Assembly: GCA_001918935.1 (NCBI GenBank) | Contig: MNGW01000101.1 | Location: forward strand, 1-35,932 | Direction of reading: 5' to 3' | DNA length: 35,932 nucleotides | Origin: Acidobacteriales bacterium 13_1_40CM_3_55_5 | GTDB lineage: Bacteria; Acidobacteriota; Terriglobia; Terriglobales; Acidobacteriaceae | In this document: piece by piece, positions 7,131-35,932 of the stretch | Layout of the letters: each line of letters opens with the position of its first letter | Position numbering within the stretch: the stretch's first letter is position 1 | Translations under genes and position numbers: made by a program | Notes under the pieces: generated by a model | The model's database searches: none | Told to the model about the DNA's origin: nothing | Seen by the model: only the letters and a program-made list of their open reading frames with translations

Positions 7131-7293
7131 TCTAGCAATCAGCATTCAGCACTCAGCATTCAGCCGAGTCCAAACTGAATAGACTATCCGGCAAGTGCGT
7201 CGGTTAGCAAATGTGATGGGCGGTTTTTTGATCGCTACGAACCCCAAAGGCTGAATGCTGATTGCTGAATGCTAATTTCCAAATGCTGATTGC
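7131..7293. repeat. inverted heptad arrays, 'empty' (no gene in the loop)
   Basis: The left arm 7141-7165 and the right arm 7249-7273 are 25-nt reverse complements with one mismatch, built from TCAGCAT/TCAGCAC heptads. Degenerate units extend the arms to 7131 and 7293. The 83-nt loop contains no ORF. It fills the intergenic gap between the divergent DUF2911 and 84-aa genes. Confidence 0.85.
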
Positions 7294-9367: not shown

Positions 9368-9382
9368 TTCAAAACCCCTTTT

Positions 9383-9927
9383 TTAACCACGGAGGCCACG
9401 GAGGAACACAGAGGAATTATTTCATTTGCCCCAATTTTTGCCATTTACCATTCGTTGGATGCCATTACGAAGGTGTGTGACATGGAAGTTGATGAGAAGA
9501 CCTACGTTCTTGCCGCTCAACTTCAAGTACGACAAAAGCTGCGCCTGGTGAATGGGATGAAAGCCCTCAGTACACTTCAATTCGACGATGACCGACTCCC
9601 CAACCATCAAATCGAGACGGTAACCGAGGTCGATGGTAGTTCCATCGTAAACGACCGGCAACACAACTTGATTCCGAACCTCCAACCCTTGCTTTCGCAA
9701 CTCATGGACCAAACAGGCCTCATAAGCGCTCTCCAACAGCCCTGGACCTAGAAGCGAATGAACTTTCATGGCAGCGGTGATGATAACGCCGGTAAGGAGA
9801 TTGACGCGCGGGGTAGGAGCTAATAATCTCGGACTAGCCATGGCGATTCGCGGATTTGTTTCCGCTGATTGCACCCTAGCACAAAAAACAAAATTCCTCT
9901 GTGATCCTCCGTGTCCTCTGTGGTTAA
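9383..9927. mobile_element. 545-bp cassette: GxxExxY gene between 36-bp inverted repeats
   Basis: The left repeat 9383-9418 and the right repeat 9892-9927 are 36-nt reverse complements differing at three positions. Each is made of CACAGAGGA/CACGGAGGA units bounded by TTAACCAC and GAGGAATT. The only gene between them is the GxxExxY protein, whose stop lies 3 nt inside the left repeat. The cassette sits between fadA and fadE. No target-site duplication is obvious. Mobility is an inference from the terminal inverted repeats and the dispersed repeat family. Confidence 0.6.
9422..9841 (-). CDS. GxxExxY protein (PD-(D/E)XK nuclease-like)
   Basis: A 139-residue protein with the family signature GLLESAYEACLVHEL (G-x-x-E-x-x-Y) and a nuclease-like core: LGYRLDLMVGESVIVELKC supplies the Asp and the ExK, followed by QAQLLSYLKLSGKNVGLLIN. 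GxxExxY proteins (TIGR04256) are widespread and uncharacterised, and the fold is predicted to belong to the PD-(D/E)XK superfamily. ATG 9841 (MASPRLLAPTPRVN) was chosen. The frame is open up to 9979, but that extension is merely translated repeat (HRGHGG). It lies inside the inverted-repeat cassette between fadA and fadE, in the same orientation as both. DNA cleavage or repeat recognition is possible but unproven. Confidence 0.88.
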   Translation of the reverse strand: MASPRLLAPTPRVNLLTGVIITAAMKVHSLLGPGLLESAYEACLVHELRKQGLEVRNQVVLPVVYDGTTIDLGYRLDLMVGESVIVELKCTEGFHPIHQAQLLSYLKLSGKNVGLLINFHVTHLRNGIQRMVNGKNWGK

Positions 9928-9932
9928 AGATT

Positions 9933-11108
9933 TTAGAGATTTTCGAAGATACCCGCCGCCCCCATCCCCCCGCCCACACACATAGTCACCATCCCATAGC
10001 GCGCCTTACGCCGCTTCAATTCACGAATGACGGTCGCCGTCAGCTTCGCCCCAGTACATCCCAGTGGATGACCCAAAGCAATTGCCCCGCCATTGGGATT
10101 CACGCGCTCCGGATCAAGTCCCGCCTCTTTGATCACCGCCAGTGACTGCGCTGCGAAAGCTTCGTTGAGTTCAATGACATCAATATCCGACAGCTTGAGT
10201 CCCGCCATCTTCAACGCCTTGGGAATGGCAAACACCGGTCCCAGCCCCATTTCTTCCGGCTTATATCCCGCAGTACTAAATGAAACGTAGCGAACCAGCG
10301 GCGTAATTCCGAGCTGCTTTGCGCGATCGGCGGACATCACTACCGCCGCCGCCGCGCCATCTGACATTTGCGAAGAGTTCCCCGCCGTCACTGTGCCCTT
10401 GACGTGGAAAGCGGGCTTGAGCGCAAGCAACGCTTCCAGCGAAGTATCGCTGCGCGGCCCTTCGTCCACTTTGAAAGTAATTTCTTGTCGCTTAGGTTTC
10501 GATCCATTCGGCGTCGTGAAGCTCACGGGCACCGGAACAGTCTCGTCGCTGAACTTCCCGGCCTGAATCGCGGCTAGCGCCTTCTGATGACTACGCAATG
10601 AAAACTCATCAGCAGCCTCACGCGTAATACCAAAACGCTGTGCCAGTCTTTCCGCCGTCAAACCCATTGATAGATACGCGTCAGGGTAGTGCTCCACCAG
10701 CCAGGGGTTAGGTGAAATTTTGTGCCCACCCATGGGAATCATGGACATCGATTCCGTACCCCCAGCAACGATCACTTCCGCCCCGCCGCTCATGATGCGC
10801 TCTGCTGCCATCGCAATCGCCTGCAGACCAGACGAACAGAAGCGATTGATAGTGAGCGCCGAAATCTCAACCGGCAGGCCCGCGCGTAAAGACGCAATGC
10901 GCGCCACGTTCATCCCCTGTTCCGCCTCCGGCATGGCGCAGCCCAGGATCACATCTTCAATCTCCTTGACATCAACCTGCGGCACACGCTCCAGGGCGCC
11001 TTTGATCGCGACCGCAGCCAATTCGTCAGGACGAGTAGCGCGAAGAGTACCCTTGAAAGCCCGTCCAACAGGTGTGCGAACCGAAGAAACAACAACCGCT
11101 TCACGCAT
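9933..11108 (-). CDS. fadA: acetyl-CoA acyltransferase (3-ketoacyl-CoA thiolase)
   Basis: This catalyses the last beta-oxidation step: thiolytic release of acetyl-CoA from 3-ketoacyl-CoA. It has 391 residues, family length. The nucleophile is Cys91 in [13 protein letters not shown], and the acid-base residues are His347 ([16 protein letters not shown]) and Cys377 ([11 protein letters not shown]). [20 protein letters not shown] is a typical start, with GGAG a few bases upstream of ATG 11108. It stands between fadN and fadE in the Bacillus-like order fadN-fadA-fadE, but is separated from fadN by a tRNA and terminator, so it must have its own promoter. A CCTCTGTG-family repeat starts 5 nt after its stop codon. 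Confidence 0.95.
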
Positions 11109-18640: not shown

Positions 18641-18672
18641 CCATGCCGCGCGTGATGTCTGCGGGCGCGCCC

Positions 18673-18712
18673 CGGAGGGACAAAACAATTTAGCCCAGCG
18701 CTTCAGCGCTGC
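18673..18712. repeat. REP element, GCTTCAGCGC family, left of the TonB-like gene
   Basis: GGACAAAACAATTTAGCCCA runs into the palindrome CAGCGCTTCAGCGCTG. An inverted, near-identical copy lies at 19405-19453, on the other side of the TonB-like gene. Confidence 0.85.
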
Positions 18713-19404: not shown

Positions 19405-19453
19405 TCCCAGCGCTGAAGCGCTGGGCTAAATTGTTTCGTCCCTACCGGGACGT
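19405..19453. repeat. REP element, inverted partner of 18673-18712
   Basis: The palindrome CCCAGCGCTGAAGCGCTGGG is followed by CTAAATTGTTTCGTCCC, the reverse complement of the left copy with one difference in the shared part. It lies between the TonB-like gene and the end of the diguanylate cyclase gene. Confidence 0.85.
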
Positions 19454-24632: not shown

Positions 24633-24693
24633 GCAGCATTCAGCAGTCAGCGAGGGAAGAGCGGCACTTAGCATTTAGCACTTGGCATTTAGG
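24632..24693. repeat. heptad repeat arrays abutting the ahcY stop
   Basis: AGCAGCATTCAGCAGTCAGC, then after a short gap GGCACTTAGCATTTAGCACT and TGGCATTTAGG. The units are TCAGCAT, TTAGCAC and TTGGCAT variants, all in plus orientation. Further on, a REP-like palindrome TGGGCTTTAGCCCA lies near 24769-24782. Confidence 0.75.
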
Positions 24694-31504: not shown

Positions 31505-32896
31505 ATGCTAGACAAAAACAAAGCCGCTGACATCTTCGGGAAGATAAAAAAGTACTCGAGTGCAGACGAGGTGGAAGCTCTCACCTACGGCGGGCATTCG
31601 GCGCTGACCCGATTTGCCAACAACACCATTCATCAGAACGTGGCGGAGGAGAATTACGTTGTTTCCGTGCGGACGGCTTTTGATGGGCGCACGGCTCGAG
31701 CTACCACTAACAAACTTGATGATGAGAGTTTGAAGCGTGTAGTGGCGGCCTCGGAGAAGCTGGCGAAGGTGCAGCATCCGGATCCCGATCTCTTGCCGAT
31801 GCCCGAAGCGGGCGGGGGCGCCCGCTCCACACAATCAGATCCAATTCCGAGTAGATATTTTGACGAGACTGCGTCAGTCACCCCAGAGCAGAGAGCCGAG
31901 GCAGTAAAAAAGATTGTCGGCGTGGCTCAGAAGCATAAGCTGACGACTGCCGGCATCTTTTCGACTTCGGAAGTTGTGGAAGGGATATTCAATTCGCGCG
32001 GGCTGGCGGATTGGTATCGGCAAACGTCGTCGGAGGTGTCGGTCACGATGCTGGCCGCGGATTCTTCGGGGTGGCAGAAAGCGAATTCTCCGAACGTCGC
32101 TCAGTTAGACGCGGTCACGCTAGCCGAAATTGCGGCGCGGAAGGCGTTTGAATCCGCAGCGCCGCGCGAAATCCCAGCGGGAAAGTACACCGTCATTCTG
32201 GAGCCGGCGGCGGTGCTGGATATTGTTGGGTTCATGTTTTACGACTTTGGCGGGCTGGCGATCCTCGACCAGCGATCGTTTCTCAACAACCGCGTGGGCA
32301 CAAAACTATTCGGCGAGAACATCAATATTTGGGATGACGTCGGCCACGCGCTGCAGTCGGGCGCACCATTCGATGGAGAAGGGATTCGCCGTCAGCGAGT
32401 GCAACTGGTCGAGGATGGAGTAGTAAAAAGGTTGGTCTACGCCCGTGTCACCGCCGAGAGGATGAAGAAGTCTGAGTACAAGGACAAAGTGGGACAGATC
32501 GAGCCAACCGGCCACGGATTCCCCATCCCCAACGAAATGGGCGAAGCTCCGATGAACATCGTGTTTGGCGGGACTCGAGAGCCGAAGACTGTGGACCAGA
32601 TGATTGGCTCCACCGAGCGCGGTATTCTCGTGACGCGGTTGTGGTATATCCGCGAAGTTGATCCCTATGAAAAGATCCTCACCGGCATGACGCGCGATGG
32701 AACCTTCTATGTGCAGGACGGCGAAATCCAATACGGAGTGCGCAACTTTCGTTTCAACCAAAGCTTGATCGCGATGCTGTCGAACGTCGAAGAGATGGGA
32801 ACCCCAGTGCGGGCCAGCGGGGAAGAATCGTTCGATATGGTGGTGCCGGCAATGAAAGTGGGGGAATTTAATTTTACGGAAGTAACAAAATTCTGA
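31505..32896 (+). CDS. pmbA: PmbA/TldE-family protein
   Basis: The partner subunit of TldD. It is a structural homologue without the HExxxH metal site and contributes to the protease chamber. It has 463 residues from ATG 31505 (MLDKNKAADIFGKIKKYSSA). Family motifs: TRFANNTIHQNVAEENYVVS, VRTAFDGRTARATTN, IFSTSEVVEGIFNSRGL, PAAVLDIVGFMFYDFGGLA and the C-terminal VRNFRFNQSLIAMLSNVEEM. Residues 102-110 (AGGGARSTQ) are encoded by a REP-like element (31808-31834) that is otherwise intergenic at 661-687. The insertion keeps the frame and lies in a linker, so the protein is probably functional. No clear ribosome site is visible, as heptad repeats occupy the leader. Confidence 0.93.
   Translation: MLDKNKAADIFGKIKKYSSADEVEALTYGGHSALTRFANNTIHQNVAEENYVVSVRTAFDGRTARATTNKLDDESLKRVVAASEKLAKVQHPDPDLLPMPEAGGGARSTQSDPIPSRYFDETASVTPEQRAEAVKKIVGVAQKHKLTTAGIFSTSEVVEGIFNSRGLADWYRQTSSEVSVTMLAADSSGWQKANSPNVAQLDAVTLAEIAARKAFESAAPREIPAGKYTVILEPAAVLDIVGFMFYDFGGLAILDQRSFLNNRVGTKLFGENINIWDDVGHALQSGAPFDGEGIRRQRVQLVEDGVVKRLVYARVTAERMKKSEYKDKVGQIEPTGHGFPIPNEMGEAPMNIVFGGTREPKTVDQMIGSTERGILVTRLWYIREVDPYEKILTGMTRDGTFYVQDGEIQYGVRNFRFNQSLIAMLSNVEEMGTPVRASGEESFDMVVPAMKVGEFNFTEVTKF
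31808..31834. repeat. REP-like element within the pmbA reading frame, copy 2
   Basis: 25 of 27 positions match the intergenic copy at 661-687. It is translated in frame as AGGGARSTQ. Confidence 0.8.
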
Positions 32897-32900
32897 AGGC

Positions 32901-33427
32901 GGCAATTAGCAGTCAGCATTCAGCACTCAGCATTCAGCACTCAGCATTCAGCACTCAGCATTCAGCACTCAGCATTCAGCACTCAGCATTCAGCACAAAA
33001 ACATCAGCGCTCATCCTGCTCGACGATCTGCTTCGACTTTACGGACTAAGGATGCAAGCATCCGCTTAATTTCGACCACTGCCAAGTTCAGCTGGGTGTA
33101 ATCCAAATCACTTAGGAAACCAAGATCGTGCGCTAGCAGAAAGTGATATTCCAGTTCGCTGGCGGATCCGCTAGCAATGTTCAGGAAGCGCTGAAACCCA
33201 GGATTTCCTCTTTTGCCACAGCCCTCAGCAATGTTCGCGGCAACTGAGGCAGCACATCTACGAATTTGGTTTGCCAATCCATACATTTCTTCCCGAGGAA
33301 ATGTAGATGTCGCTGCATATGCTGCGAGAGTCAGGCGATGCGCTTTTTGCCACACTTGTAAATCTCTAAAATCTTTCATGGGAAGCCACCTTCTTGTCTT
33401 GGCTGAATGCTGACTGCTGAATGCTGG
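32901..33427. mobile_element. 527-bp cassette: four-helix-bundle gene between inverted heptad arrays
   Basis: The left array 32901-32996 contains six perfect copies of the 14-mer TCAGCATTCAGCAC (32913-32996). The right arm 33401-33427 is the same heptad family in inverted orientation. The only gene between them is the four-helix-bundle protein (33011-33379). The layout parallels the GxxExxY cassette at 9383-9927 in size and plan. The left array begins 4 nt after the pmbA stop. Mobility is inferred. Confidence 0.55.
33011..33379 (-). CDS. four-helix bundle protein (S23 / 23S rRNA intervening-sequence family)
   Basis: A 122-residue helical protein: MKDFRDLQVWQKAHRLTLAA, then FPREEMYGLANQIRRCAASV, AANIAEGCGKRGNPGFQRFL and ASGSASELEYHFLLAHDLGF, the standard signature of the TIGR02436 / S23 family. 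Relatives are encoded inside 23S rRNA intervening sequences and, as Avd, in diversity-generating retroelements, where they bind nucleic acid. The role of free-standing copies is unknown. The start is ATG 33379 with AAGGTGG upstream; the longer open frame to 33658 runs through repeat DNA and the PilZ gene. It lies inside inverted heptad arrays, opposite in orientation to pmbA and the PilZ gene. Confidence 0.92.
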   Translation of the reverse strand: MKDFRDLQVWQKAHRLTLAAYAATSTFPREEMYGLANQIRRCAASVAANIAEGCGKRGNPGFQRFLNIASGSASELEYHFLLAHDLGFLSDLDYTQLNLAVVEIKRMLASLVRKVEADRRAG

Positions 33428-33560: not shown

Positions 33561-33995
33561 ATGTCAGACCAGTGTCGAACCACGGGAAGTGGAAATCCGG
33601 GCGTCTCTGCGGAGACTCGGAAAGAGAGTTCGTCTTCGGTGGCAGACAAATCAGGCAAACCAGAGAAGACCGAGAGGAGGACTAGCCGCCGCTATCCGGA
33701 CATGCAGAGTGCGGTGCGCTTTCCCATCAAGCTGCCGATTTCGGTGAAGTCGAAATCGGGTGACAGCGCGACGCAAACCCAAAACATCTCCGCCAACGGC
33801 GTGCTGTTCCAGGTGGACGCAGAAATGCCTGTAGGCTCGATGGTGGATTTCACGATTTCCCTGCCTGCGGAGGTGGTTGGCGCCGAGGCCGACGTCCAGC
33901 TCGATTGCCGGGGCCGGGTAGTGCGCAATTTTGAAGAAGGTGGCCGTCGCGGTGTGGGCGTGGTCATTGATGAATATCGTTTTGAGCGCCACTAG
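33561..33995 (+). CDS. PilZ domain protein (c-di-GMP binding)
   Basis: A 144-residue protein with a charged, disordered N-terminus (about 1-45) and a PilZ domain: RRTSRRY as the arginine-rich binding motif, then RFPIKLPISVKSKSGD, QNISANGVLFQVDAEMPVG with the (D/N)xSxxG motif, and RGRVVRNFEEGGRRGVGVVI. Both parts of the c-di-GMP site are present, so binding is likely. It is 18 nt upstream of the LuxR-type regulator, which suggests one operon joining c-di-GMP sensing to transcription control. ATG 33561 is preceded by only a weak ribosome site. Confidence 0.9.
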   Translation: MSDQCRTTGSGNPGVSAETRKESSSSVADKSGKPEKTERRTSRRYPDMQSAVRFPIKLPISVKSKSGDSATQTQNISANGVLFQVDAEMPVGSMVDFTISLPAEVVGAEADVQLDCRGRVVRNFEEGGRRGVGVVIDEYRFERH

Positions 33996-34816: not shown

Positions 34817-35015
34817 CTGAGCAGTCAGCATTCAGCACTCAGCACTCAGCTCAGCAAACTCAGCAAACCGCGATGCTACCTTGAGTCCTGTTTATACTCC
34901 CGCAGTTTTCGGAAATCCTTAATCACAGAGGACGCAGAGGCTCGCAGCGAACCAGCACCCAGCCATTATCTAAGGAATTGGCTGAGTGCTGAATGCTGAG
35001 TGCTGACTGCTGCTG
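34817..35015. repeat. inverted heptad arrays, 'empty', between the LuxR-type gene and tRNA-Ser
   Basis: The left arm 34817-34865 (GCAGTCAGCATTCAGCACTC and further units) and the right arm 34980-35015 pair over about 29 bp with two mismatches. The roughly 115-nt loop has no ORF but contains a CACAGAGG-family repeat at 34919-34940. The left arm starts 3 nt after the LuxR-type gene's stop. I see nothing else in the gap up to the tRNA at 35124. Confidence 0.8.
34919..34940. repeat. CACAGAGG-family repeat inside an empty heptad hairpin
   Basis: TTAATCACAGAGGACGCAGA-GG is a short form of the 36-bp repeat that bounds the GxxExxY cassette. It is nested in the loop of the heptad inverted repeat. Confidence 0.65.
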
Positions 35016-35123: not shown

Positions 35124-35213
35124 GGAGAGATGGCCGAGTGGCTGAAGGCGCACGCTTGGAAAGCGTGTTTACTCGAAAGGGTAACGTGGGTTCGAATCCC
35201 ACTCTCTCCGCCA
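35124..35213 (+). tRNA. tRNA-Ser (anticodon GGA)
   Basis: A 90-nt cloverleaf with a long variable arm: acceptor GGAGAGA/TCTCTCC, anticodon stem CACGC/GCGTG with loop TTGGAAA (anticodon 35158-35160), variable arm about 35168-35185, T arm GTGGG-TTCGAAT-CCCAC, G73 and an encoded CCA. It reads UCC/UCU serine codons. The integrase gene ends 28 nt past its 3' end, so the tRNA 3' half is the likely attachment site. Confidence 0.96.
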
Positions 35214-35241: not shown

Positions 35242-35932
35242 TCAGTTTGCAATCACTTTACGAGTTAAGGCAAGCCCTACGACCTTCGAGTGCGCTTGTG
35301 CCATCTCATCCGTGACCACGTCGCCGTAGATGTTCATCGTCGTTCTGATGTCGCCATGCCGCATCAGCTTCTGTTGAACAGCAATCGGCGTCCCGACGGC
35401 ATCCAACCAGGAGCGGTAGCTGTGGCGCAACGAATGTGTGCCCAGTTTCCCGATTCCGGCTTTGGAAGCCGCCTGCTGAAACATCAGCCAGACCCACGGG
35501 TACGAAACCGGTAACCGGCCAAGCTTAACTGGGCTAGCAAACATCCAATCTTCATCCAACGAAAATTGGCTGTCCTGCCTCCATGTTTTCAGCGCTTCCA
35601 GCATCGCTGCATCGATGGACATCAGTTTGCCTGAGTAGATGGTTTTCACGTCGTCAACTTGTTGGCGGACGATCCCGCGTTCAACTCGAAGCTTGCTGTT
35701 GAGCCAGTCCACATCCGACCACCTTAAACCGAGGCATTCGCTGATACGCAGACCAAAGCAAACGCAAACCAGCGAAATCGTGCGGATGGGTTCCTCCAAA
35801 TGTTCCAGGAACAGTTGGAACTCTTCCACCGTCAGACTGCGAGGTTTCCGCATTCGCTTGGTTGCCCCTTTGATTGTGACCAACTCCATGGGGTTCCGTT
35901 GCGTGGGCGCATCGCCGCGCCACATGGCGTAA
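35242..35932 (-). CDS. tyrosine recombinase/integrase, C-terminal catalytic part (runs off the window)
   Basis: About 229 residues of a phage-type integrase are visible. The catalytic residues are in order: Arg in CFGLRISECLGLRWSDVD, His-x-x-Arg in GTHSLRHSYRSWL, His in MRHGDIRTTMN and the nucleophile Tyr in NIYGDVV. The frame remains open to the window end, and the start of the core-binding domain is missing, so the gene continues beyond 35932. It points towards the tRNA-Ser gene 28 nt away, the usual arrangement at the edge of an integrated element. It would cut and rejoin att sites in the tRNA 3' end. Confidence 0.92.
   Translation of the reverse strand, partial: YAMWRGDAPTQRNPMELVTIKGATKRMRKPRSLTVEEFQLFLEHLEEPIRTISLVCVCFGLRISECLGLRWSDVDWLNSKLRVERGIVRQQVDDVKTIYSGKLMSIDAAMLEALKTWRQDSQFSLDEDWMFASPVKLGRLPVSYPWVWLMFQQAASKAGIGKLGTHSLRHSYRSWLDAVGTPIAVQQKLMRHGDIRTTMNIYGDVVTDEMAQAHSKVVGLALTRKVIAN

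Follow-up and report, generated by a model that had tools for sequence, protein, structure and literature searches.

A small S23 gene between inverted heptad arrays in an acidobacterial genome, and a putative class of single-gene elements with lineage-specific end repeats

The window (as we call the whole stretch of DNA analysed here, 35,932 nucleotides) corresponds to contig C44 in a draft genome of 2.87 Mb and 74% completeness, that of Acidobacteriales bacterium 13_1_40CM_3_55_5. Towards its right-hand end, a single small gene is enclosed by two arrays of one heptad in inverted order (Table 1). The encoded protein is a full-length member of the S23 / 23S_rRNA_IVP family, exceeding the curated cut-offs of both PF05635 (126.4 bits, cut-off 33.8, E 6.8e-37; positions 1-105 of the 106 in the profile) and TIGR02436 (122 bits, cut-off 24, E 1.2e-35). 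Its only other Pfam match is a weak one to bAvd (PF22296, E 1e-4, below cut-off), and it scores 22.9 bits against DivGenRetAVD, for which the cut-off is 80. The top strand of the left arm reads CAGCATT/CAGCACT in the direction of the gene, and 24 of 25 positions match between the two arms. The fold predicted for the RNA joins both arms around the gene, which is the paired-arm structure that the original prediction from this DNA had offered as a check (z only -1.9 for the entire cassette). That prediction had described a unit of 527 bp with a 96-nt array at one end; array, S23 gene and inverted arm are all real and lie within a few bases of where it placed them, the two lengths being slightly generous. 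No rRNA surrounds the cassette: an Rfam scan of the window returned two tRNAs and the Acido-Lenti-1 RNA only.

The window holds a second cassette of similar size and plan, as had been claimed, in which a GxxExxY gene lies between inverted arrays of 9-10 nt units of the CCACGGAGG/CCACAGAGG type (arm score 29.5). Because its ORF (9422-9979, minus strand) has its first start codon outside the 5' arm, translation probably begins further in, within the arms. Arrays without a gene are present too; the fold of the first such element in Table 1 has a z of -6.2. At the contig end, a tyrosine integrase gene (35242-35925) is directly beside a tRNA (35124-35210), the probable edge of an integrated element.

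Table 1. Cassettes, gene-less elements and arrays in the window, with positions counted from its first nucleotide.
Feature	Positions	Strand	Remarks
Gene-less element, AGCANTC arms	7131..7273		AGCAATCAGCATTCAGCACTCAGCATTCAGCC ... GGCTGAATGCTGATTGCTGAATGCT; interior unrelated
GxxExxY (PDDEXK_3) cassette, 547 bp	9382..9928	-	Arms 9382-9418 and 9892-9928; PF13366, 138 bits
Solo arrays	24634..24692	+	CAGCATTCAGCAGTCAGC, then related unit GCACTTAGCATTTA
Complete S23 cassette, 519 bp	32908..33426	-	TldD-like gene (31505-32896) on one side, PilZ gene (33561-33995) on the other
Left arm	32908..32997	+	AGCAYTC tandem heptad array, ~12.6 copies; TRF, 98% as 14-mer
S23 / 23S_rRNA_IVP four-helix-bundle gene, 122 aa	33011..33379	-	Profile matches PF05635, TIGR02436
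Right arm, inverted heptad array, 26 nt	33401..33426	-	GGCTGAATGCTGACTGCTGAATGCTG; minus strand CAGCATTCAGCAGTCAGCATTCAGCC
Gene-less element, AGCANTC arms	34818..35012		Interior about 130 nt

The source genome has five S23 genes, one of them frameshifted and one decayed, and inverted heptad arms are visible in the printed flanks of all five, each with a heptad of its own (AGCAYTC, GGTCTSR, CAGTGGY, GTTTCTA and ACGATTG). Each locus was given the score of the best local alignment between its upstream flank and its downstream flank read as the reverse complement, and the threshold was set at a score of at least 15. No ORF of 90-400 aa reached this score in an unbiased 246-kb sample of the same genome (0/163), and 246 kb of unselected contigs contained no gene-sized inverted heptad pairs, just three short gene-less ones. 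Among Terriglobia relatives, the survey that the original prediction had called for, 48 of 60 further S23 loci reached the threshold, as did 50 of 79 S23 loci from about 20 phyla (Bacteroidota, Chloroflexota, Cyanobacteria, Planctomycetota, Verrucomicrobiota, Proteobacteria, Acidobacteria, Fibrobacter, CPR and others). Control ORFs neighbouring S23 genes did so in 9 of 227 cases, and four of those nine turned out to be S23 genes themselves, found blind; the proper comparison is thus 5/223 non-S23 neighbours (~2%) against 50/79 S23 loci (Fisher p about 1e-30). Spans displaced within the same S23 loci gave 1/412. A clear arm pair is missing at about 20-35% of S23 loci.

The anatomy that we observed at these loci is consistent: the best arm period across 127 loci is 7 in 104, 8 in 16 and 9 in 5; the elements have a median length of 478 bp (5-95% range, 421-616 bp); and on the inward strand AG exceeds CT in 100 of 128 loci. 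Random placement of arrays or a lack of length conservation would have refuted the original prediction, and both are contradicted by these figures. Its suggestion of a general class of repeat-bounded single-gene cassettes is supported by the non-random placement, the conserved length and the plan of the GxxExxY unit; the association of S23 with arrays is in fact far more general than had been claimed. GxxExxY genes elsewhere behave alike, with 25 of 29 loci reaching at least 15 versus 0/113 controls (units of 8-10 nt, CACAGAGGA type), and so does a weaker, Avd-like S23 subfamily (18 of 20 loci; 7-8 nt units, GATTT/ATTGG type). Members of the latter (L227-L246; TKxFALRIIRLxRALP...GTSVAANYRAACRARSR) are common in Terriglobia and have inverted 7-8 nt arrays of their own. 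Three other accounts of the loci were set aside. Insertion in rRNA has no support from the eight loci scanned, in which no rRNA was present; a phage origin has a single weak phage match to its name; and duplicate S23 loci on two Calothrix plasmids are not a transposition pair, their flanking genes being identical on both sides, which indicates a larger duplication.

Another key observation, which the original prediction had missed and which we regard as the strongest point, is that the repeat unit is specific to the lineage of the protein and not to the genome, insofar as sequence comparison can establish this. We expressed repeat similarity as a 5-mer cosine for 130 loci, and the bins of protein identity count different-genome pairs only: the cosine is 0.02-0.04 below 50% protein identity, 0.25 at 60-70% and 0.58 above 70%, whereas the similarity of the outer flanks stays near 0.1 up to 70%. 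In a Mantel test of repeat against protein, restricted to pairs below 70% identity, none of 2000 permutations matched the observed value. The 93 same-genome pairs have a mean cosine of 0.034, which is not above that of different-genome pairs. On the protein tree (from which L149, a duplicate of L063, was excluded), unit class requires 31 changes, where shuffled labels need 57.7 on average and 49 at the least in 300 shuffles; almost no signal attaches to the genome label (61 versus 65). The lineage of the window protein keeps CAGC-type units in Blastocatellia, Planctomycetota, Deltaproteobacteria and Methylobacillus, and cross-phylum S23 pairs with 71-77% identity have common units (Victivallales and Ignavibacteriales, for example). 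Unit and protein are linked in the GxxExxY set as well (0/2000); in the Avd-like set the linkage is below significance (175/2000). By itself, this linkage cannot separate recognition of the unit by the protein from mere co-inheritance without binding.

The same units also occur without a gene. In the source genome, AGCAYTC arrays are found at roughly 30 sites, often in inverted pairs whose inward polarity is again the same; their arms start with (C)AGC and end inward with TCAGCC, and their interiors (0-170 nt) are related neither to each other nor to S23. We had considered that such elements might be deleted S23 cassettes, and this holds for G015 only. At L289 and L290, heptad elements are nested, the TGCCGAA type inside AGCAYTC, as successive insertions would give. 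We searched 61 genomes for arrays of three heptads. Where a genome has an S23 cognate to the heptad, arrays were found in 15 of 16 genome-heptad combinations, and where it has none, in 24 of 167; a control pattern read backwards was almost absent. Own arms were discounted where possible (for G025, the CAGCAYT count is that among the matches listed), and a genome counts as a carrier solely by the S23 loci that were read, which may have left a few carriers unrecognised. G007, G030 and G019 have dozens of CAGTTCT or CAGCAYT arrays and no cognate S23 among the loci read, and in G030 a dozen or more CAGTTCT units stand in one run: are these orphan populations, or have the genes been lost? G027 has arrays and lacks any S23. 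An unselected 400-kb stretch of one relative contains 21 inverted tandem pairs, and among those of gene size are the pairs around its GxxExxY gene and one of its S23 genes. Others of gene size lie around a cobalamin adenosyltransferase-like and a carboxypeptidase-regulatory-like gene (G026, C27, 297973-298765 and 191971-192453; L347, L342), a possible case of capture of ordinary genes.

The history of the window cassette can be followed at its site, where the gene order TldD-PilZ-LuxR is conserved. The congener G001 has a cassette at the same place, its S23 being 92% identical and its left arm ~4-5 heptads long versus 12.6 in the window. In G015, of the next genus (TldD 82%), both arms and both ends of the S23 gene are kept and the middle is lost; the GxxExxY site of this genome retains an arm remnant alone. 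In the more distant G004, G006, G007, G008, G012 and G022, the cassette is absent and only a short intergenic region is seen. Presence/absence variation, which the original prediction had named as a check, is observed, as cassettes present, deleted or absent at a conserved junction, but not with precise ends: neither the junction relatives, which are too diverged to define exact cassette ends, nor the pair G000 and G001, whose clean indels are not heptad elements, revealed a recent, clean insertion with defined ends or a duplicated target site. No target duplication is visible at gene-less elements either. Array expansion has been rapid and confined to one arm (window left arm versus G001, L297).

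Several known systems invite comparison. The intervening sequence (IVS) in the 23S rRNA of Coxiella is 428-444 nt long and has an S23 ORF enclosed by a terminal stem of 28 bp, and the S23 protein of Xanthomonas (2gsc) forms a ring of five four-helix bundles (PMC4990558). As far as can be told from its citation in PMC4990558, Ralph and McClelland proposed the IVS as a mobile element with an ORF that serves mobility. The cassettes resemble the IVSs of Coxiella and Leptospira in the PF05635 family, in having one ORF between complementary ends, in their sporadic distribution and in size (cassette arms are about 25-35 nt). Unlike IVSs, they are free-standing between protein genes (that of the window is outside rRNA) and occur in many copies per genome with different units and gene-less relatives; their ends, built as tandem arrays of a short unit, may be a further difference. 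The likeness is thus one of size and anatomy, there being no RNA-processing data and no rRNA-inserted copy in the comparison.

The population pattern is closer to that of RAYTs and REPINs (PMC3116915): a small gene has inverted repeats of its own, hairpin elements that share those ends but lack the gene are numerous and are associated with the cognate gene, and one genome holds several types. In contrast, RAYT ends are single GC-rich palindromes where S23 cassettes have tandem heptads, and the S23 protein is no Y1/HUH transposase. As a positive control, our flank test recovered inverted REPs at 18 of 25 RAYT genes of the same genomes and tandem arrays at none (0/25), which indicates that the method detects a known element type and that the ends of S23 and GxxExxY cassettes are of another kind; a RAYT/REP origin of the arrays was rejected on these grounds. 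We noted in passing that the Rfam Acido-Lenti-1 RNA (RF01687; window 19406-19452 (+) and 18668-18711) occurs in related genomes as inverted pairs around RAYT/Y1 transposase genes at L354, L355, L357, L358 and L359, and singly at L356, L361 and L365; it looks like a RAYT-associated REP and not a stand-alone sRNA.

Heptamer repeats have been described in Xanthomonas (GGGAATC), Nostoc and Beggiatoaceae (TAACTGA) (PMC4692102, PMC4679880). They are likewise intergenic 7-nt arrays, with 70-75 convergent inverted pairs in Xanthomonas, the source of the 2gsc structure; these papers, however, deal with G-quadruplexes or translation control and do not mention S23 genes. The accessory protein Avd of diversity-generating retroelements has a homologous four-helix-bundle fold. 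The cassette, unlike those systems, is a single-gene element, and none of the six window proteins scanned (cassette and neighbouring proteins) matched a reverse transcriptase family.

The IVS-like anatomy, together with the RAYT/REPIN-like population pattern, leads us to propose that the window cassette belongs to a pan-bacterial class of small single-gene elements with ends that are recognised by the protein they encode; we assign this reading a probability of about 0.6, the recognition and mobility being inferred. Such an element would comprise two inverted arrays and, between them, a single gene of ~120 codons for S23/IVP, its Avd-like relative or GxxExxY. The array unit (7 nt, sometimes 8-9, for S23; 8-10 for GxxExxY) is characteristic of the protein lineage, and in most loci one and the same strand of it faces the gene from either side. 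The encoded multimer would recognise the end units, either in the DNA itself or in an RNA/ssDNA hairpin formed by the two ends. This recognition would allow the cassette to spread, along with gene-less elements that share its ends, by an action in trans of the kind ascribed to RAYTs on REPINs. The 23S IVSs would be those members that happen to sit in rRNA. To our knowledge, S23 has no nuclease or transposase activity and no known catalytic site, so it is host enzymes, we infer, that would cut and join. The data show the anatomy, its wide occurrence, the tie of unit to protein, the gene-less derivatives and the variation at the TldD/PilZ junction. Counting against the proposal are the lack of a clean recent insertion, the gene-less interiors unrelated to S23 outside G015, the array-rich genomes in which no cognate S23 was read, the S23 loci without a clear arm pair, and the possibility that unit and protein are simply co-inherited.

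The arms might instead be cis-acting RNA or expression elements (an mRNA-stability or RNase III hairpin, or an autoregulatory site) of a cassette that is inherited vertically with occasional transfer. We judge this unlikely, though it has substance: RNase III cuts the 23S IVS within a terminal stem of this sort (PMC4990558), G000 and G001 hold the window cassette by vertical descent, and an autoregulatory site would follow its protein just as a recognised end would. Elsewhere in the genome, dozens of pairs without a gene have these same defined ends, some of them nested, which sits badly with such a role, as does the absence of the cassette at a conserved junction in relatives; furthermore, the variable base of the unit is mirrored only weakly between the arms, so perfect pairing seems not to be selected. 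An RNA-level role of the arms stays possible, bearing in mind that they pair in the predicted transcript.

Alternatively, the array ends might be the target of other host functions (a reverse transcriptase, a transposase or hairpin recombination), with S23 and GxxExxY as cargo, which to us is a rather improbable arrangement. Gene-less elements in genomes without a detected cognate gene, the occasional presence of other genes between arrays (such as that for the cobalamin adenosyltransferase-like protein of G026) and the lack of any known catalytic function for S23 would all be accommodated by it; the related Avd, moreover, acts with a reverse transcriptase (PMC10053308). From a common machine, however, one would not expect the unit to follow the S23 or GxxExxY protein and to differ among the cassettes of one genome, and the RAYT loci of these same genomes have palindromic REPs, none of them tandem. 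Finally, that the arrays are ordinary intergenic repeats born of slippage, with S23 genes among them by chance, is scarcely credible, even though heptamer arrays are over-represented in many bacterial intergenic regions (PMC4692102): the neighbouring-ORF and own-genome controls contradict it, and slippage would not give inverted order, inward polarity or protein-specific units.

The S23/IVP and GxxExxY families are very common and have no known function, and the heptamer arrays, noted long ago, still lack an explanation as a repeat class. Each component was already known; their association is apparently undescribed, in that the literature we searched, subscription papers and preprints excluded, contains no report in which inverted tandem arrays are linked with the S23 or GxxExxY genes that they flank. 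What emerges looks like a widespread, tiny and so far unnamed type of element that is probably mobile. That S23 and GxxExxY are the first known factors to recognise and spread their own short tandem-array ends, a small non-transposase protein co-evolving with a lineage-specific unit of 7-10 nt, is a more tentative claim, to which we give slightly less than an even chance. The link between gene and repeat offers both a testable role: the protein predicts its own DNA unit, and the repeat predicts its own protein. It also supplies dozens of natural protein-repeat pairs of differing specificities for tests of binding and mobility, and in its light the 23S intervening sequences appear as only the visible part of a class that is general. 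If it is true that the two proteins recognise and spread such ends, this would explain both the intervening sequences of 23S rRNA and many of the heptamer repeats of bacteria that are as yet unexplained.
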